In this document: positions 50,354 to 59,580 of the stretch, piece after piece
How positions within the stretch are numbered: position 1 is the stretch's first letter
Layout of the letters: every line of letters starts with the position of its first letter
Source of the DNA: Chryseobacterium glaciei
GTDB taxonomy: Bacteria; Bacteroidota; Bacteroidia; Flavobacteriales; Weeksellaceae
Length of the DNA: 64,000 bases
Reading direction: 5' to 3'
Assembly: GCF_001648155.1 (NCBI RefSeq)
Contig: NZ_CP015199.1
Span: forward strand, 992,001-1,056,000
The notes under the pieces: model-generated
Told to the model about the DNA's origin: nothing
Databases searched by the model: none
The model's input: the letters and a program-made list of their open reading frames with translations, nothing else
Position numbers and translations under genes: made by a program

Positions 50354-50455
50354 GTAAAGGGTAATTATGAATAGTAGGCATAGTATTTGTCATAGAAATC
50401 AGAATGACAAAATTTATGGATATTTTCAAATATTGAAAATAATGACTTCCACCCT

Positions 50456-50540
50456 AGCCCCGATTGTAACGACATCCTTTTTTGTTGCGGCGGAGCGAAG
50501 CGGAGCCGTAGCCAAAAAGATACAGTGGAAAGCGGGATTA
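50456..50540. repeat. GC-rich interspersed repeat-like segment, second member
   Basis: Begins AGCCCCGATTGTAACGACAT, carries the self-complementary core GGCGGAGCGAAGCGGAGCC and ends AAAAAGATACAGTGGAAAGC. Block order matches 30388-30480. It stands out by GC content. No coding capacity is supported. Confidence 0.55.
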
Positions 50541-50562
50541 AGCTTCTAAAAAAATTCAAATA

Positions 50563-51840: not shown

Positions 51841-52452
51841 TTACAAATATTTCTGCTGAACAGTTTTAATAGTTTCTTCTAATTTTCTGTCTGCTGTAGG
51901 ATCTCCGATTGCGTTGAATTTCCATTCTCCGTTTCTCTTGTAGAAAACTCCCATTACCATGGCAACGTGACCTTTGAAAGAAGCATCATTCGCGATATCA
52001 TATTTAGCAAAAACTTCTCTTACATTGGTTGGAGTTCCTTCGTAAATTCTGATTGAAGCAAAAGGAATTGTTCCGAAATCCTGACCTCTATAACTGTTCA
52101 AAACCAATGCAACGTGCTCTACACTAGCATCTAACTGACTGAAATCAATAGTAATAACTTCGTTATCAAGACCATCGTCTCCATTTACGTCACCTGTTAA
52201 ATCATCACCGCTGTGCTTTACAGAACCGTTTTTAGATTTTAGGTTTCCGAAATAAATTACTTCAGTAGAATTTTTATTAGAATCGTATAAAATACAGCTT
52301 CCGTCTAAGTCTACCGCCTCTCTTGTAACTCCTCCGAAGAACCCTTTTTTCTCAATTGCACCCCAGTTGATCCCAACACAAGCCTGCGTAAGAGCTGTAC
52401 CGTTTTCCTTCGTAAGGTTTATTCTTTGACCTTTTTGTAAGTTAATAGCCAT
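51841..52452 (-). CDS. terD: TerD-family calcium-binding stress protein, second copy
   Basis: 203 residues. TerD fold with the calcium-site motifs VDLDGSCILYD, VKHSGDDLTGDVNGDDG and YEGTPTNVREVF, plus the C-terminal NGEWKFNAIGD. It lacks a signal peptide. TerD domains bind calcium and occur in cytoplasmic stress complexes. It is longer than the other copy (184 residues) and diverges in the N-terminal loop. Genes for an unknown protein and TelA precede it. Confidence 0.9.
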   Translation of the reverse strand: MAINLQKGQRINLTKENGTALTQACVGINWGAIEKKGFFGGVTREAVDLDGSCILYDSNKNSTEVIYFGNLKSKNGSVKHSGDDLTGDVNGDDGLDNEVITIDFSQLDASVEHVALVLNSYRGQDFGTIPFASIRIYEGTPTNVREVFAKYDIANDASFKGHVAMVMGVFYKRNGEWKFNAIGDPTADRKLEETIKTVQQKYL

Positions 52453-52516
52453 CTTTTTATGTTTAGTTGTTTATTATTTGTTTGGGCAAATTTTGCCTTA
52501 GCTTTTCAGCTTTTTA

Positions 52517-53464
52517 TTAATTATTTAAATTTAAATTCAACATCGCGCGAAGAATATTTGTTTCTTCATTAATGTCGAATATTTTGCTCATAATATCTAC
52601 ACTTTCGAGATTTCGGAGATAGTCTTTCAAAACGTTTGTTACCGCCTCAGGTAATACACGCTTTCTTTCATTGATCGTATCTTCCAACTGTTCGTTTTTT
52701 CTTCTCAACTGATTAATAATTGAGCTTTGGTTTGATTCATTAGGCGTAACATCTATCTTTTCAAGTATTTTAGAATCAATCATATACATTTTCTTTTCTT
52801 CAATATTAAAAATGAAATGATCATCCGACTGAAAAACCTTAAAAAGTTCATACTCATTACCCGTAACAATGTAACCGCATATAAAACGAACTTTAAAACC
52901 TTGAATATTAAGCCTTCCCAGCAGTTTTCTTTCGATTGAATAATCCAAATACTGATACGATGGAACTATATTACATTTTAACAGCTCTTCATCAACACTG
53001 GATCTGTAAAACTCTGTTGCATATTTTTTATAAAAATACAGAACATTGTCCCACTGCACCCGAAATTTATCTTCCGTAAGATCTTTATAAAGGCTTTTTA
53101 ACTGATTGGAAAATACACCGCTGTACATTTTCCTGTCGGTTTCAAAACTATCTGCTCTGCCCTCTTCAAAACCCGAAATATATTTATTATTAACATCAAT
53201 TTCATTAATTACCGTTAACAGATCATTTTCTTTCTGACGTTTGATTTTTGTCAGCAATTCTATTAAACTGTCTGTATATTGGAGATGAAAAAGCTCAAGT
53301 TTACTATAATCCAATCCCTTATTTTCCCGAAATAGATTGTCGATAATATCTGTTTTAATATAAATCGATATGATATCAATATTTTCAAAAAAATTCGAAA
53401 GAAGTTTAAGCTTTGTTAATCTTCTTTTACTCTGAGATAATATGGTTATAGCTTCATCATCCAC
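52517..53464 (-). CDS. Unrecognised Ter-operon protein
   Basis: 315 residues with no signal peptide. The N-terminal ~130 residues are Leu/Ile-rich helices (FFENIDIISIYIKTDII). A middle mixed part (IVPSYQYLDYSIERKLLGRLNIQGFKVRFI) and a C-terminal coiled segment (NQLRRKNEQLEDTINERKRVL) follow. I recognise no family. It lies between telA (16 bases) and terD-2 (64 bases) on the same strand, so it is most likely part of the Ter complex or its regulation. The conserved position could be checked across flavobacteria. Confidence 0.65.
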   Translation of the reverse strand: MDDEAITILSQSKRRLTKLKLLSNFFENIDIISIYIKTDIIDNLFRENKGLDYSKLELFHLQYTDSLIELLTKIKRQKENDLLTVINEIDVNNKYISGFEEGRADSFETDRKMYSGVFSNQLKSLYKDLTEDKFRVQWDNVLYFYKKYATEFYRSSVDEELLKCNIVPSYQYLDYSIERKLLGRLNIQGFKVRFICGYIVTGNEYELFKVFQSDDHFIFNIEEKKMYMIDSKILEKIDVTPNESNQSSIINQLRRKNEQLEDTINERKRVLPEAVTNVLKDYLRNLESVDIMSKIFDINEETNILRAMLNLNLNN

Positions 53465-53480
53465 CTTTATACGGTATTAA

Positions 53481-54659
53481 TTATCCTCTGACGTTTGCTT
53501 TTAGTTCGTGTTCCAATGTCTGTAGATCCTGATCCAGCTTTCTTCTGCCTTCTGCACCTTGCTTTTGGATTTGTTTCACCTCGTTCAAAGTACCGATAAG
53601 TTTCGCAGTTGTTTCTCTCAATGTTTCTACAGAAACGATCGTTTGCTCGTTTGCTCTTGCAACGTTTACTGAATTCTGACCCAGACGTTCTGCATTTTTT
53701 CTTAAAATTTCTTCTGTTGTAGCAGAAACTTTCTGTTGAATCTCAATATTCTGCTGCTGTCTGTACATCGCAACCGCCAATGAAAGTTGATTTTTCCAAA
53801 GTGGCAACGTTGTCGTCAAAATAGTTTGTGCTTTTTCAGCAATAGAAACGTTGTTATTCTGAACCAATCTGATCTGTGGAAGAGACTGCATCATAATCAA
53901 ACGAACCACTTTAAGATCCGCCAATCTTCTATCTAATCTCGCGATAAAATCTCTCTTATCAGCAATTTGATAATCCTGATAAGTTTGTGGAGCAGCTTCC
54001 ATTTGAGCTAATTCAACTCCAGCTTTTTCCATTCTCAGATTTCCGACGATTACCAATTCTTCGATTTGCTTGATGGCATTCACATTACTTTCAAAAATAG
54101 TCTGCAAAACAGCATTATCCTTTGTAGAAGTAATGATTCCGGCATTTACTTTATAAGCGATCTGATCGATATTATTAACGATCTTGTCATATTTTGTAAA
54201 TAAATTCTCGATCTGCGCCACGATACTCTTCATGAACGGCAGTTTGCTTAAAAAGCTCTTGAATTTATTTTGATTTAATTCATCTACATCTACATAATTA
54301 AGCTCCAACAATAGATTATTGATAAGCTCTCCTACTTCTCCGGAATTTGATCTTCTTACATTTCCTAAGAAACTATCACTCTGATTAGAAAGTGTTCTTT
54401 GAAGGTCAGCCCCAAAATTGACGATAGATCCAGGGTTAGATTCATCGATAGAATCTGCAAGAGTCTCGTATTTTTTACGTTCTTCAATCTGTAACTGAGT
54501 CAAGTTTACATTTCCGTCTCTGTCTACAAGCGGAGCCGGAGGCATGCTTGGAGCTGCCGGCTGAACCGGTGTCGGAGGAGCCATTGGAGTAGGTTCGAAT
54601 GTCTTTAGAGGTTCAATAGATCCAAGTGGATCAATCGGTTGATTTTCTTGATTATCCAT
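53481..54659 (-). CDS. telA: TelA-family toxic anion resistance protein
   Basis: 392 residues. A Pro/Ala-rich N-terminal tail (about 15-45) precedes a long helical body with TelA features: FLSKLPFMKSIVAQIENLFTKYD, ALEQ-like charged helices, VVRLIMMQSLPQIRLVQNN and TLPLWKNQLSLAVAMYRQQQN. TelA proteins accompany TerD in tellurite and other stress operons and may form coiled-coil scaffolds. It is cytoplasmic. It lies 6 bases after terD-1 and 16 bases before the unknown protein. Confidence 0.9.
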   Translation of the reverse strand: MDNQENQPIDPLGSIEPLKTFEPTPMAPPTPVQPAAPSMPPAPLVDRDGNVNLTQLQIEERKKYETLADSIDESNPGSIVNFGADLQRTLSNQSDSFLGNVRRSNSGEVGELINNLLLELNYVDVDELNQNKFKSFLSKLPFMKSIVAQIENLFTKYDKIVNNIDQIAYKVNAGIITSTKDNAVLQTIFESNVNAIKQIEELVIVGNLRMEKAGVELAQMEAAPQTYQDYQIADKRDFIARLDRRLADLKVVRLIMMQSLPQIRLVQNNNVSIAEKAQTILTTTLPLWKNQLSLAVAMYRQQQNIEIQQKVSATTEEILRKNAERLGQNSVNVARANEQTIVSVETLRETTAKLIGTLNEVKQIQKQGAEGRRKLDQDLQTLEHELKANVRG

Positions 54660-54665
54660 GGTAAA

Positions 54666-55220
54666 TTATTGATAGATTGATACAAACTTATCCAGACCGT
54701 CTCTTTGTCCGCTTCCTACAGCTTCAAATTTCCATTCTCCGTTTCTGTTGTAGATTCTTCCGAATTCTACGGCTGTTTCGATTGAGAAATCTTCGTCTAA
54801 TTCATATTTTAAGATTTCTTCATTCGTTTCTGTGTTAAAAATTCTGATGAAAGAATTTCTTACTTGTCCGAAGTTTTGTTTTCTGGATTCAGCTTCGTGA
54901 ATCGTTACGACTACTGTAATTTCTTTTACAGCATCATCAATTTTAGTTAAATCGATTTTAATTTGCTCATCATCCCCATTTCCGTCACCCGTCAAATTAT
55001 CACCAGAGTGAATCACCGCTTTGTCCGGAGATTCAAGGTTGTTGTAAAAAATAAAATGATTATCAGAAACTAACTTTTTGTTCTCGTCCAATAAAAATAA
55101 AGACGCATCTAAGTCGAATCCTGTTCCGGTAGATGTATTATTGGTGTCCCAACCTAAACCTACAGTAAATTTAGGTGCGTTTATGTTTTCTCTTTGTCCT
55201 TTTTGTAAGTTAATAGCCAT
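54666..55220 (-). CDS. terD: TerD-family calcium-binding stress protein, first copy
   Basis: 184 residues. TerD motifs are complete: LGWDTN, DLDASLFLLDENKKL, VIHSGDNLTGDGNGDDEQI, FIRIFNTETNEE and NGEWKFEAVGSGQRDG. Acidic residues from two loops bind calcium in characterised members. Its start overlaps the end of the PRTase gene by 11 bases, which argues for coupled expression. Confidence 0.92.
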   Translation of the reverse strand: MAINLQKGQRENINAPKFTVGLGWDTNNTSTGTGFDLDASLFLLDENKKLVSDNHFIFYNNLESPDKAVIHSGDNLTGDGNGDDEQIKIDLTKIDDAVKEITVVVTIHEAESRKQNFGQVRNSFIRIFNTETNEEILKYELDEDFSIETAVEFGRIYNRNGEWKFEAVGSGQRDGLDKFVSIYQ

Positions 55221-56034
55221 AATATAATTCAGTTTGCGTTAAAGTGTTTATATTGTTTTCGTATTCTTTTATTAAATGATAATTATTGCTGATCGCAAGT
55301 TCCAGCAGGTTATCCATATGTTCTTTTGTTACTTTAGACGTAAGATACTCAAAATTACTTGAATCCAGTCCTAAAATATATTTCACGATCCTTGTATTGA
55401 ACTGGAAACTTGGCTTCACCATTACTTCTGCAACATGTTTTACATCTTTCACAGCGTAGTAATTGAAGAAGTTTTCAATTTTTGGATCTAACTCAAAATT
55501 CATCAATTCAGCATAATACATGAATAAAAAATCTGCTTTCACATCAAATTCATCCAAAATTTTATTCACTGTAAATTCATGACTTCCTGTAATTTTTATA
55601 TCGTCTATAAAAATACAAAGTTTTCCTCTTAAAAAATCTTTATCAAGATAATAAGTATCATTGGCAATCAGATTTTTACGGTCTTCAAAACTTAAATTTC
55701 CGTAATCTGTTGTATAGGTATGATTTCTATTGATTTTTGATAAAATACTCGACTTTTTTCCTTTCTGAAATAAATAAAAATCAAGATATTTTTTGAAGTA
55801 AAAACATAAAAAATTAGAAGCCGTCGGAATTGCCATGTAAGGACTTGGCAACACCACGATTTCTTTATCTGTATTTAAAATTTCTTCGTGTGCAGAAAGA
55901 AATCCGTCAAATAATTCTTTTGCAAATTTTTCAGCATACGATTTATCGCCATACTTGAAATAGCTGTATTCTGCAGGCGAAAAAGTAAACTCATCCGCCG
56001 AATGAATGTGGTGTAAACTATACCTTTTATTCAT
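55210..56034 (-). CDS. Ter-operon phosphoribosyltransferase-fold protein
   Basis: 274 residues. The PRPP-type loop is seen in LCIFIDDIKITGSHE, with an upstream strand EIVVLPSPYMAIPTASNF as in PRTases. Ter operons in many bacteria carry such PRTases, proposed to take part in making a nucleoside-like metabolite; this is inference here. It is cytoplasmic, lies 5 bases from the HAD gene and overlaps terD-1. Confidence 0.78.
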   Translation of the reverse strand: MNKRYSLHHIHSADEFTFSPAEYSYFKYGDKSYAEKFAKELFDGFLSAHEEILNTDKEIVVLPSPYMAIPTASNFLCFYFKKYLDFYLFQKGKKSSILSKINRNHTYTTDYGNLSFEDRKNLIANDTYYLDKDFLRGKLCIFIDDIKITGSHEFTVNKILDEFDVKADFLFMYYAELMNFELDPKIENFFNYYAVKDVKHVAEVMVKPSFQFNTRIVKYILGLDSSNFEYLTSKVTKEHMDNLLELAISNNYHLIKEYENNINTLTQTELYYGY

Positions 56035-56039
56035 TTCTA

Positions 56040-56708
56040 TTAGTTTTTTAATAAATATGCATTAAATCCAAAATCCTTTGCTCCCTTGTAATCTGCAATC
56101 GGATTATCTCCGATATGCAAAATCTGATCCATCGGCAGATTCTGATTTTTAACTCTATTTTTTACCTCCTGAAAAATAAGAGGATTCGGTTTAGAAATAT
56201 TCAGTTCATCAGAATAAATATGGAAATCAATGTACTGATCCAAATTTTCATTGATAAGAAATTTTCTCATCGTTTTTCCTTTGATAAATCCTGTATTGCT
56301 TAAAACATTAATCGTTTTTCCCTGATTTTTAATTTCGTCAAAAAACTGATGTAAATTTTCGAAAATAATAACAGGTTTATATTCTAAAAACAACTCTTCG
56401 CTTTTCAGATAAAAGTCATTTAGTTTTTCTTTATTTATCTGTTTTAAATCAATATTCAAAGATCCTAAGATCAATAAATAAATTTCAAAAGTATCAATAT
56501 TCCCACCCAATACTTCATTGATATTATTACAAAGATCATCATAATATTTTACGACTTTCGCAACTTCTTCAATGGGTTTATTTACGTTAAAAAATGAGGA
56601 GAACAGCTCAACTCTTTTTGCTTTAAATTCAGGGTGAGATTTTATTAAGGTAAGCCACAAATCAAAAGAAAAATGTGAGTGATTGTGGATGTCTATATCT
56701 GTTTTCAA
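56040..56708 (-). CDS. HAD-superfamily hydrolase, first gene of the Ter operon
   Basis: 222 residues. HAD motif I reads FDLWLTL: the nucleophile Asp is present but the second Asp of the phosphatase motif is Trp, as in dehalogenase-like members. Motif II VLSNTGF, motif III Lys in ISKPNPLIF and motif IV HIGDNPIADYKGAKDFG follow. The cap domain fits subfamily I. It may act on a phosphorylated or otherwise modified nucleotide metabolite made by the Ter enzymes. A -7 element for the operon lies about 100 bases upstream. Confidence 0.82.
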   Translation of the reverse strand: MKTDIDIHNHSHFSFDLWLTLIKSHPEFKAKRVELFSSFFNVNKPIEEVAKVVKYYDDLCNNINEVLGGNIDTFEIYLLILGSLNIDLKQINKEKLNDFYLKSEELFLEYKPVIIFENLHQFFDEIKNQGKTINVLSNTGFIKGKTMRKFLINENLDQYIDFHIYSDELNISKPNPLIFQEVKNRVKNQNLPMDQILHIGDNPIADYKGAKDFGFNAYLLKN

Positions 56709-56819: not shown

Positions 56820-56956
56820 GAATTTTTCTTATTAATGGATAAATGTACTTCTATGTTTTAAGATATTTTTATGATTTCCCGTAATTTGAATTTAATATTT
56901 GATCTAAGAAAATTCCTTTTTTTAACGCTATGATCGCTAGGTTTCGTTTAATTCTT

Positions 56957-57053
56957 TGAAAATATTTTTCGTTCGCAAAGGCACTTCGTTCAGCAAATGA
57001 TAGCAGAACGGCTTGGCTGAGTGAAACGCCTTTGCGAACGAAAAATATTTTCA
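56957..57053. repeat. Inverted GCAAAGGCGTTTCACTC repeat element, copy 2
   Basis: Perfect 26-bp arms (56957-56982 with 57028-57053) flank a 45-base centre. The right arm and its flank, read on the minus strand, contain TTCGCAAAGGCGTTTCACTC, identical to 34521-34540. Further to the right, AACGCAAAG and CAAAGATTTTT match the start of copy 1 in order. A 61-codon frame through this element is not a real gene. Confidence 0.8.
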
Positions 57054-57158
57054 ATCATTTCAAAAAAATCTTTGTGAGCTTTGCGTTAAAAATAATTTAA
57101 CAAACCAAGCATTTTATTTCTTCAATTTTCTGTCGTTTGAAAAAAATTAAAAAAAGTT

Positions 57159-57188
57159 TTTGTGATTTAAATATTTTTTATAATTTCG
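57159..57188 (+). promoter_or_regulatory. Bacteroidetes promoter for the EF-G leader transcript
   Basis: A TTTG -33 element at 57159-57162 and TAATTTCG -7 element (one mismatch to TAnnTTTG) at 57181-57188 are separated by 18 bases. Transcription would start about 15 bases before the leader ORF. Confidence 0.6.
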
Positions 57189-57208
57189 CAACCGATTAAC
57201 AATCAACA

Positions 57209-57295
57209 ATGTCAACAAAAATGATAAATATTATAACTTTAAACAATCCTATCAGAGCTGTGTTCTTTGGTAGCACTGAATATTTATCTGAATAG
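57209..57295 (+). CDS. Candidate leader peptide upstream of the EF-G paralogue
   Basis: A 28-codon ORF begins MSTKMINIITLNNPIR and ends GSTEYLSE before TAG. It lies directly after a promoter and 32 bases before an intrinsic terminator, and 218 bases before the EF-G gene. This order (promoter, short ORF, terminator, ribosome-related gene) is that of transcription attenuation, where ribosome stalling on the leader changes RNA folding. The peptide has no export features. Its identity as a regulatory ORF is inferred from position. Confidence 0.55.
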   Translation: MSTKMINIITLNNPIRAVFFGSTEYLSE

Positions 57296-57327
57296 TATCG
57301 ACCTTTATAAAATCAAAATATAATTAA

Positions 57328-57356
57328 AGGCCTGTCTATCCAGATAGGTCTTTTTT
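57328..57356 (+). terminator. Intrinsic terminator between leader ORF and EF-G gene
   Basis: A 10-bp stem (57328-57337 with 57342-57351, two G-T pairs) has a 4-base loop and a run of six T. It lies upstream of the main coding region, so it would stop transcription unless disrupted. Confidence 0.75.
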
Positions 57357-57513
57357 GCTACCCAATTTCCAGCTTTCGAAAATTCAAGTTGGTCGTCTTA
57401 AATTTTTTAACGAAAAGAAAAATTTTCTTACTAAATAAAATGGTAAGACTAATAAATATTTACGTTTAAAATTCAAGTATAACCTTAAAAATCAACAATT
57501 TAAATTTAACAAA

Positions 57514-59580
57514 ATGAAATACAACACACGAAATATAGGGATAATAGCGCACGTCGATGCCGGAAAAACAACACTCACGGAAAGATTGCTTTATTACACA
57601 GGAATGATCCACAAAATAGGAAACGTAGACGAAGGAAATACAACGATGGATAAAGATATTCAGGAAAAAAACCGAGGAATTACCATTTCATCTGCTGCCA
57701 TTTCCACACAATGGAAAAAGGATGATACCATTTTTAATATCAACATCATTGATACTCCCGGACACATTGATTTCGCAGTGGAAGTTGAACGTTCTTTACG
57801 AGTTCTGGATAGCGTTGTCGCTGTTTTCTGTGCTTCTTCGGGAGTTCAGCCACAAACTGAGAATGTTTGGTTCCAGGCGGAGAAACATGGAATTTCTAAA
57901 ATCTGTTTTATCAATAAAATGGATAGAATTGGAGCTGATTTCTTTGCTGTTTTAAACGAAATCAAGACTAAATTGAATGCAGCTCCCTTGGCCTTACAAA
58001 TTCCAATTGGTTCTGAAGACAATTTTGAAGGAGTGATTGATTTAATCAAGCAAAAAGCTTTGTATTGGATGGATGAAAATGGTGAAACGATTATTGAAAA
58101 AGAAATTCCTGAAAATTATAAAGTAGAAGCTGATGAATTCAGATTAAAATTAATGGAAACATTGGTCGAATCTGACGAAACGTTCTTTGAAACTTTCATG
58201 AATTCTGAAACTCAAATTTCTGAGAACATGATGATTGAAGCGATAAAAAGGGCTTGTCAAACAAGAGCAATTGTTCCTGTTTTATGCGGTTCTGCTTTTA
58301 AGAATAAAGGAGTTCAGCCTTTACTCGATGCAATTGTAAGTTATCTTCCCGCTCCCAATCAATTGACTTCAATTAAAGGAAAAAATCCTGCAACAGAAGA
58401 AACTATTGAATTGGAAAGAAATGAAGAAGAAACTTTTTCAGGATTGGTGTTCAAGGTTGTGATTGATAAACATATGGGAAAACTAGCGATGGTAAGAATC
58501 TATTCAGGAAAGATAAAATCTGGTGATACTGTCCTCAATGTGAGAACTGATGAAAATTTCAGAATATCTAGGATTTTGCAAATGCAGTCGAATAAAACGT
58601 TAACCATTGAAGAAGCGAAAGATGGTGATATCATCGCTTTAACAGGAATAAAAGATGCTAAAACAGGAGATTCTTTATCTTCTCTTCAAAGGCCTGTAGT
58701 TTTGGAAGCGATCACGATTCCAGCTCCAGTTATCCGAGTTTCAATTGAACCTAAAACGAATGCTGACGAGAAATCTTTCGGTTTGGTTTTAGCTAAAATT
58801 CAGGAAGAGGATCCTTCGTTGGTTGTTGAAAGAGACAAACAAACTGGTGAAACTTTATTGAGTGGTTTGGGCGAATTACATCTTGAGGTTACTTTAGAAA
58901 AGATCAGATTGAATCACGGAATTGAGATCAATCAAGGAAAACCTAAAGTTTCGTACAAGGAAATTTTAACCGAAACTAGAATTCACAGAGAAAAATTAGT
59001 GAAACAAAACGGAGGAAACGGACAATTTGCGGATATTACTTTTGAAATCGGACCTAGAGATCATAATGAAATCGGGTTAGAATTCATTAATAAAATTAAA
59101 GGCGGAGTTATTCCTAGTGAATTTATTCCTTCCGTAGAAAAAGGTTTCAGAGAAGCAATGGAAAACGGAGCCATAAATGGATATCCTTTGGAAAGCATGA
59201 AAATTACACTTCTTGACGGTTCCACTCACTCCGAAGATTCGGGTGCTTATGATTTTGAAATTTCTGCAAGAGACGGTTTCAGAGCAATTGCAAAACAGTG
59301 CAAACCAAAATTATTGGAACCCATCATGCAAGTTGAGATTCAAAGTATTGAAGAATATACTGGGGCCGTGACTGCTGACATCAATAAAAGAAGAGGAATT
59401 ATTACTTCAATTGATGAAAGATCAGGTAGAAAAATTTTCACTGCGGAAGTTCCTTTGGCTTCTACTTTCGGATATATTTCTGATCTGAGAACGCTGACGA
59501 GCGGTAGAGCTTCGATTAGTATGAAATTGTCGCACTATGCTTTAGTGCCTGATTTTATTTCAAATACATTAATAACTTAA
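57514..59580 (+). CDS. Elongation factor G paralogue (translational GTPase)
   Basis: 688 residues, the usual EF-G length. All GTPase motifs are present: AHVDAGKT (12-19), RGITI (54-58), DTPGH (80-84), NKMD (134-137) and GSAFKNKG. EVERSLRVLDSVVAVF and VQPQTENVW match EF-G and not Tet(M)-type ribosomal protection proteins. Domain IV keeps the His of the tip loop in DGSTHSEDSGAYDF. No rpsL, rpsG or tuf gene is nearby, so this is not the housekeeping str-operon copy. It may be a stress or antibiotic-response translocase. The leader ORF plus terminator upstream suggests induction by ribosome stalling. Confidence 0.85.
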   Translation: MKYNTRNIGIIAHVDAGKTTLTERLLYYTGMIHKIGNVDEGNTTMDKDIQEKNRGITISSAAISTQWKKDDTIFNINIIDTPGHIDFAVEVERSLRVLDSVVAVFCASSGVQPQTENVWFQAEKHGISKICFINKMDRIGADFFAVLNEIKTKLNAAPLALQIPIGSEDNFEGVIDLIKQKALYWMDENGETIIEKEIPENYKVEADEFRLKLMETLVESDETFFETFMNSETQISENMMIEAIKRACQTRAIVPVLCGSAFKNKGVQPLLDAIVSYLPAPNQLTSIKGKNPATEETIELERNEEETFSGLVFKVVIDKHMGKLAMVRIYSGKIKSGDTVLNVRTDENFRISRILQMQSNKTLTIEEAKDGDIIALTGIKDAKTGDSLSSLQRPVVLEAITIPAPVIRVSIEPKTNADEKSFGLVLAKIQEEDPSLVVERDKQTGETLLSGLGELHLEVTLEKIRLNHGIEINQGKPKVSYKEILTETRIHREKLVKQNGGNGQFADITFEIGPRDHNEIGLEFINKIKGGVIPSEFIPSVEKGFREAMENGAINGYPLESMKITLLDGSTHSEDSGAYDFEISARDGFRAIAKQCKPKLLEPIMQVEIQSIEEYTGAVTADINKRRGIITSIDERSGRKIFTAEVPLASTFGYISDLRTLTSGRASISMKLSHYALVPDFISNTLIT

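Follow-up and report, generated by a model that had tools for sequence, protein, structure and literature searches.

The reason for which a second EF-G is kept in so many bacteria is still open, and the regulatory region in front of such a gene can hint at when the second copy is wanted. Here the question is raised by a 64,000 nucleotide stretch of the 4.87 Mb genome of Chryseobacterium glaciei (contig NZ_CP015199.1, positions 992,001 to 1,056,000; referred to as the window), in which an EF-G gene is preceded by a short ORF and a terminator. Chryseobacterium is an environmental genus which also causes opportunistic infections. An initial annotation, made from the window alone, read this arrangement as the layout of ribosome-mediated attenuation in front of an EF-G paralogue outside the str operon, and proposed that a conserved leader peptide and paired stem changes upstream of the orthologues in other Weeksellaceae would support it. 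Is the paralogue controlled by a ribosome on the leader, and if so, what would that ribosome be sensing?

Locus layout and the EF-G paralogue

The locus reads, from 5' to 3', as a promoter-like site, a 28-codon ORF, a terminator, a spacer and the EF-G gene (Table 1). The ORF lies where it had been annotated, and the approximately 157 bases given between terminator and EF-G are exactly 157 from the end of the T run to the ATG.

The encoded protein scored 831.9 bits against the NCBIfam EF-G equivalog TIGR00484 (cut-off 659.4), which identifies it as an EF-G, and the Pfam domains GTP_EFTU, EF-G_D2, EFG_III, EFG_IV and EFG_C are all present. It fell below the cut-offs of both the Tet ribosomal-protection model NF012153 (370.5 bits, cut-off 775) and the Bacteroides EF-G2 model NF058620 (418 bits, cut-off 1000). 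The other EF-G of the genome is 47% identical to it and is located between S12/S7 and S10 (gene names assigned by eye). As this other copy occupies the str operon, the EF-G of the window is a stand-alone paralogue, in agreement with the initial annotation. What we take to be its G-protein motifs appear intact when aligned by eye with the str-operon copy. Among the best 120 matches listed, the closest relative is a protein named for Chryseobacterium limigenitum (95% identity).

Table 1. Features of the probable attenuator locus (positions are those of the window).
Feature	Position	Strand	Description
Bacteroidetes-type promoter-like site	57159-57188	+	TTTG 57159-57162, 18 bases, TAATTTCG 57181-57188
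Leader ORF	57209-57295	+	28 codons; stop TAG 57293-57295
Codons 2-13	57212-57247	+	amino-acid-level conservation, outside the helices; candidate nascent-chain sensor
1:2 hairpin	57249-57273	+	arms 57249-57257 / 57265-57273, codons 14-22
Antiterminator 5' arm	57269-57306	+	codons 21-28, stop codon and 11 bases beyond
Antiterminator 3' arm	57326-57362	+	whole terminator and TGCTACC (57356-57362)
Intrinsic terminator	57326-57356	+	stem 57326-57337 with 57342-57353 (12 pairs), loop of 4, T run 57351-57356 (six T)
Spacer, attenuator to EF-G	57363-57513	+	not conserved; promoter-like sites in 4 of 76 orthologues
EF-G paralogue	57514-59580	+	688 aa, outside the str operon

Promoter-like site and spacer

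A sigma-70 scan returned 32 sites, compared with a shuffled mean of 32.2, and was therefore uninformative; the Bacteroidetes sigma-ABfr consensus, described as TTTG / TAnnTTTG (PMC7366714), was used instead. The site predicted upstream of the leader ORF matches this consensus with one mismatch, so a promoter-like site is present as initially annotated, although its type is that of Bacteroidetes sigma-ABfr and not that of E. coli. When orthologous regions were scanned for TTTG-N16-21-TAnnTTTG, allowing at most one mismatch in the last four bases, the pattern was found upstream of 68 of 76 leaders and in 0.5% of base-shuffled versions. In the spacers between terminator and EF-G it occurred in 4 of 76, compared with 2.0% when shuffled.

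Across orthologues the distance from the end of the T run to EF-G varies from 74 to 343 nt, which suits transcriptional rather than translational control. Over 30 loci the leader ORF has a mean nucleotide identity of 0.91, whereas the initial 600 bases of EF-G have 0.86 and the spacer has 0.42. By eye, a small hairpin of changing sequence is located just 5' of the EF-G start in orthologues with short spacers (for example loci L031 and L032), and other inverted repeats are found within the spacers of some orthologues. A long inverted-repeat element (56950-57060) lies directly upstream of the promoter-like site; 38 matches to it are listed from the same genome, a number that counts the query itself and both strands of some places.

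Conserved helices of the leader RNA

Three helices were predicted in the leader RNA, and their conservation was examined in an alignment of 50 of the 76 orthologous leaders, 26 near-duplicates being omitted. For the terminator 99.0% of cells are paired, compared with 22-67% when the arms are slid against each other, and for the 1:2 hairpin 97.8%, compared with 36-51%. The antiterminator has 36 pairs, of which three belong to a weak outer helix; 93.4% of its cells are paired (37-47% when slid) and 46 cells are changed on both sides (0 of 500 shuffles). Its outer lock is formed by GGTAGCA (57269-57275) pairing with TGCTACC (57356-57362), with a consensus in orthologues of GGYAGCA:UGCURCC. The antiterminator core is within the minimum-energy fold of 48 of the 50 sequences, the exceptions being L055 and L067, which fold otherwise. 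The weak outer helix, near 57258-57260:57370-57372, is paired in only 77% and counts against an attenuator.

The terminator had been annotated with a 10-bp stem and six T; the six T stand, and the stem has 12 pairs. It is missing from a mechanical terminator scan of the window, in our opinion because its stem runs into the T run. Terminator and antiterminator are mutually exclusive. The outer lock shares 57269-57273 with the 1:2 hairpin, and competition between 1:2 hairpin and antiterminator is limited to this lock. The leader region has a folding z-score of -4.8, with none of 200 shuffles equally stable. No Rfam family matches the leader RNA, which neither supports nor excludes a new family.

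As predicted from the aligned leaders, the RNA has the anatomy of a trp-type attenuator, with three conserved helices in the order 1:2, antiterminator, terminator. The parts expected of ribosome-mediated attenuation are thus present, and an antiterminator and an overlapping 1:2 hairpin are added to those originally noted.

Covariation on the EF-G tree

Treeless comparison of all column pairs gave many pairs that follow a single clade split, and the analysis was redone on an EF-G tree. Of 99 loci considered, 77 yielded a full-length EF-G stretch, and removing identical genes or loci cut at the leader left 65. The antiterminator entered the final count as a list of 33 pairs taken from the consensus by hand. 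The filter required pairing in at least 97% and one or more two-sided changes, and 17 of 1,524 column pairs passed it.

Three helix pairs each show three two-sided changes and no broken pair on the 65-leaf tree: 57251:57271 in the 1:2 hairpin (A-U to G-C), 57271:57360 in the outer lock (U-A to C-G) and 57302:57330 in the antiterminator (C-G to U-A). Position 57271 is the wobble base of codon 21; it is U or C, and is matched by A or G at both 57251 and 57360. The change at 57251 turns Ile15 into Val, so here the amino acid appears to follow the RNA. Paired stem changes of the kind initially called for are therefore found in both the 1:2 hairpin and the antiterminator.

Seven helix pairs have both columns variable, and four of them pass the filter, compared with 13 of the other 1,517 column pairs. 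Several results count against the helices: 13 of the 17 passing pairs are non-helix, as are two of the five best-scoring (57271:57295 and 57326:57349), and the 1:2 pair 57253:57269 is broken in 10 of 50 sequences. Two of five measures, 'pairs changed on both sides' and 'further pair types', were not above shuffles for any helix. Two-sided changes are few because the sequences come from one genus.

The leader peptide

A leader peptide is present in all 76 orthologue upstream regions read, each with an open frame, a start and a stop, so that the conservation expected of it by the initial annotation was found. The 35 distinct peptides are of 28 aa in 75 leaders and 27 aa in one, the latter being omitted from the codon counts, the substitution counts and the per-codon folding tables.

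Among 64 leaders on the tree, 34 substitutions in codons 2-13 alter the amino acid and 39 are silent, whereas at a transition weight of 2 an amino-acid-altering share of 78% would be expected (binomial P 3e-9). Codons 25-28 are invariant in 75 leaders, and codon 24, which encodes E, K, Q, R or N, is NAA in 72 of 75. The N-terminal half is thus kept as peptide and the last codons mostly as RNA. Isoleucine is found at codons 6, 8 and 9 in 73, 74 and 73 of the 75 leaders respectively, with several Ile codons in use at 8 and 9. The macrolide-sensing motif RLR or R/K-x-R/K is in none of the 76 leaders, and no arrest motif was identified, which counts against the ribosome-mediated reading.

Distribution of the leader and the paralogue

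Orthologues of the paralogue, at 80-100% identity, were found in 77 of 148 genomes of the genus (83 matches, minus six at canonical level only). The upstream region was read for 76 of these; the leader of the remaining one, G019, was detected with a covariance model of the region (R1). R1 detected the leader in 78 of the 148 genomes, comprising the same 77 and G062, in which the paralogue is split in two frames. Leader and paralogue, the latter broken in a few, thus occur together in 78 genomes, and neither was found in 70. In a public pattern scan, 64 of 69 matches were from Chryseobacterium, 62 of them with EF-G downstream and two cut by the end of the locus; the other five, from other taxa, had no leader and no EF-G.

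Beyond the genus sample, R1 was applied to a family sample, in which it matched 84 of 296 genomes and one of 33 genera, and to a phylum sample of 296, in which it matched five genomes, three of Chryseobacterium and two unrelated. The latter two were rejected as EF-G leaders. L117 is an unrelated terminator-like hairpin, and L116 (1497-1621), from another genus of the order, shows by eye a TrpE-like ORF preceded by a terminator and by a short ORF containing three Trp codons, and so appears to be a classical trp attenuator matched weakly by the EF-G leader model. Among the R1 and pattern matches, no leader was found ahead of genes other than EF-G.

The paralogue itself was sought in 246 family genomes, where the matches listed beyond the genus (E up to 1e-216) had at most 50% identity; the EF-Gs listed for other genera of the family share 49-50% identity with it, which is the level of ordinary EF-G. 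Among the matches listed from 345 phylum genomes, identity outside the genus was at most 52%. Twelve non-genus phylum matches (E up to 1e-221, 49-52% identity) were rejected as paralogues as they adjoin str-operon genes: pattern matching placed S7 upstream of 10 and S10 downstream of 11, and the twelfth, L128, was assigned by eye. Within the family and phylum samples and the matches listed, at thresholds that a weaker or fragmentary relative would miss, leader and paralogue were found only in Chryseobacterium. Conservation in other Weeksellaceae, as the initial annotation had hoped for, therefore holds for one of 33 genera, which is narrower than expected.

In seven of the 65 tree genomes the paralogue is broken by early stops or shifted frames and the leader is kept, which counts against a role tied to EF-G; these are L019, L028, L156, L171, L186, L191 and L192. 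A stop occurs within eight of the 65 reading frames, once at the natural end, three times as a single early stop and four times through a frameshift, and all eight were retained in the tree. Further damaged paralogues with a leader, through an early stop, a shifted frame or a missing end, are G305, G019, G304 and L202. Such cases may represent decay or assembly error.

Folding models with a ribosome

Growing RNAs were folded as ensembles in which a ribosome covered -12 to +15 relative to the P site; the comparison of ribosome positions across RNA lengths and the pairing before the terminator 3' arm emerges were computed for every second sequence (38 of 76). With the P site at codons 21-28 the antiterminator led in none of the 38 sequences. 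When the P site was moved to codons 13-16 and the RNA ended at U-tract +4, it led in 31 of 38, compared with 7 of 38 without a ribosome. Before its 3' arm emerges, the 5' arm of the terminator is already paired upstream (median 0.77), and this falls to 0.2 with a ribosome at the stop codon. The preformed pairing is, however, as strong without a ribosome as with an early one, which counts against the ribosome-mediated reading.

The outcome depends on the length of the RNA. In RNAs ending exactly at the T run, the terminator is favoured at most ribosome positions, with a median of 0.96 without a ribosome, 0.50-0.81 at codons 1-13, 0.83-0.90 at codons 14-19 and 0.33 at codon 20. An antitermination window at codons 8-17 is confined to +4, where the RNA extends beyond the T run. 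At -3 the positions that favour the antiterminator are codons 4-6 and 20, and by +8 the antiterminator dominates even without a ribosome. As fold preference shifts with RNA length, the choice must rest on the order of folding. The models firmly predict that the terminator must form once a ribosome has reached codon 21 or beyond. They suggest that with the ribosome further upstream a preformed antiterminator would be possible, most favourably near codons 8-17 when the RNA has been extended past the T run.

Proposed mechanism and alternatives

The locus is probably a ribosome-mediated transcription attenuator controlling the EF-G paralogue. During normal translation the ribosome would follow RNA polymerase to the end of the leader and cover codons 21-28 and the stop codon; the antiterminator 5' arm could then not pair, the terminator would form and the paralogue would be off. 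If the ribosome were held part-way, with its P site near codons 8-17, segment 1 would be masked, and codons 21-28 with the bases after the stop could pair with the 5' arm of the terminator before its 3' arm emerges. The antiterminator would then zip up the 3' arm, and the GGYAGCA:UGCURCC lock would close once polymerase has passed the T run, so that the paralogue is transcribed. The weakest step is the trigger, the likeliest being slow translocation or a ribosome-targeting inhibitor in combination with the conserved N-terminal part of the leader peptide inside the exit tunnel; that translation inhibition is the stalling signal is our guess, and the stress or antibiotic response suggested in the initial annotation is likewise conjectural. 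The response to a slowed ribosome would be a second EF-G. We tentatively suggest, while holding it to be somewhat doubtful, that this is an inducible rescue translocase: when ordinary EF-G is jammed by drug or stress, the ribosome would arrest on the N-terminal peptide (codons 2-13 in the tunnel) and switch on the paralogue, which, at 47% identity to the housekeeping EF-G, would be able to function in conditions where the latter fails. On this account the need for the second EF-G would arise when ribosomes are late in completing a short peptide. This makes the role of the paralogue directly testable, and may reveal a route of intrinsic tolerance in an environmental genus.

Stalling on a particular peptide may not be needed. 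The leader could act as a speed sensor without a specific arrest peptide, in which a lagging or absent ribosome frees codons 21-28 to turn the paralogue on and the peptide sequence goes unread. The folding models lend themselves to this, since a clear block of the antiterminator is seen only when the ribosome has reached codon 21 or beyond, and the preformed pairing is equally strong without a ribosome and with early ones; the absence of R/K-x-R/K from all 76 leaders also fits, and with a translocase as product the feedback would be simple. We nevertheless consider it unlikely, as the amino-acid constraint on codons 2-13 would be unexpected if only ribosome position mattered, and as at the end of the T run the fold without a ribosome favours the terminator. 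Decidedly less probable is an amino-acid sensor of the trp or ilv type, with the ribosome stalling at Ile codons 6, 8 and 9 when charged tRNA-Ile is short. The near-constant isoleucines with varied codons at 8 and 9 would agree with it, as would the lead of the antiterminator at -3 when codons 4-6 occupy the P site. A ribosome with its P site at codons 5-8, however, leaves the 1:2 hairpin uncovered (coverage begins at codon 10) and gives low to intermediate antitermination at +4; an EF-G paralogue is, besides, an odd target for isoleucine control.

Two further explanations dispense with the ribosome as the deciding element. A leader that is itself a small RNA or small functional protein, ended by its own terminator with EF-G merely downstream of leaky termination, would account for nucleotide conservation of the ORF above that of the EF-G gene and for its persistence in the seven tree genomes with a broken EF-G frame, though that decay may be recent or the assemblies faulty. 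We think this very unlikely, given that leader and paralogue co-occur in 78 of the 148 genus genomes and neither was found in the other 70, that codon 24 is kept as NAA, as pairing asks rather than peptide, and that the helices compete across the terminator. Least probable of all, a protein or small molecule would pick the RNA fold, as in an r-protein leader or riboswitch. The strong conserved structure is compatible with this, and r-protein-type leaders have been described before rpsL, and before fusA in streptococci (PMC2965389). Against it stand the intact frame with start and stop in 76 of 76 leaders, the amino-acid-level constraint in codons 2-13, and the overlap of the helices with the ORF, through which ribosome position must alter them.

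Comparison with known systems and genomic neighbourhood

In trp/his-type attenuators a translated leader is followed by a 1:2 hairpin, an antiterminator and a terminator, and the position of the ribosome decides between them. The Chryseobacterium locus has the same parts in the same order, but its target is an EF-G paralogue, there is no run of sensor codons except Ile 6/8/9, and the final codons of the leader themselves serve in its antiterminator, which is locked by nucleotides downstream of the T run. To our knowledge, a leader-peptide attenuator that senses translocation and answers with a translocase would be the first of its kind.

Leader-peptide attenuation has been inferred before amino-acid operons in Flavobacterium psychrophilum (PMC9723704), and attenuators on ribosome-protection or rescue genes are known for tetM, vmlR and hflXr (PMC6310831, PMC5418344). 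In hflXr (Listeria lmo0762), an attenuator is induced by lincomycin or erythromycin and a stalled ribosome gives read-through; there too, a second copy of a ribosome-associated factor lies behind a small ORF, a terminator and an antiterminator (PMC6310831). That ORF is of 14 aa with RLR and is found in Firmicutes, whereas here it has 28 codons, no RLR, and precedes an EF-G in Bacteroidota. The transcription attenuator of tet(M) and the translational attenuator of tetQ of Bacteroides likewise place a leader ahead of an EF-G-like ribosome-protection gene (PMC5418344), but the protein here scores as EF-G and not as a Tet protection protein. In streptococci a transcription attenuator is predicted directly before fusA, among the rpsL-leader candidates (PMC2965389); that is an r-protein-type leader on the str-operon EF-G with no leader peptide mentioned in the available text, in contrast to a paralogue with a leader ORF.

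Second EF-Gs are themselves established. The fusA2 (EF-G2) of Bacteroides, in the same phylum, is described as controlled by the transcription factor Cur (PMC10994844), and belongs to a different protein family. Pseudomonas aeruginosa also has two EF-Gs in one genome, EF-G1A and EF-G1B, with divided roles and one insensitive to fusidic acid; that pair is 84% identical, compared with 47% here, and the abstract mentions no attenuator (PMC3832671). Among the papers listed from an open-access library, none reports an attenuator before an EF-G paralogue; the regulatory kind itself is known.

Upstream of the locus, the minus strand at 51841-56708 encodes two TerD-domain proteins, a TelA protein, a PRTase_3 protein and a HAD hydrolase, with an extra ORF (52517-53464) between, and resembles a tellurite-resistance-type stress cluster. 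A Flavo-1 RNA (Rfam RF01705, 60.8 bits) is located on the plus strand at 50452-50543.
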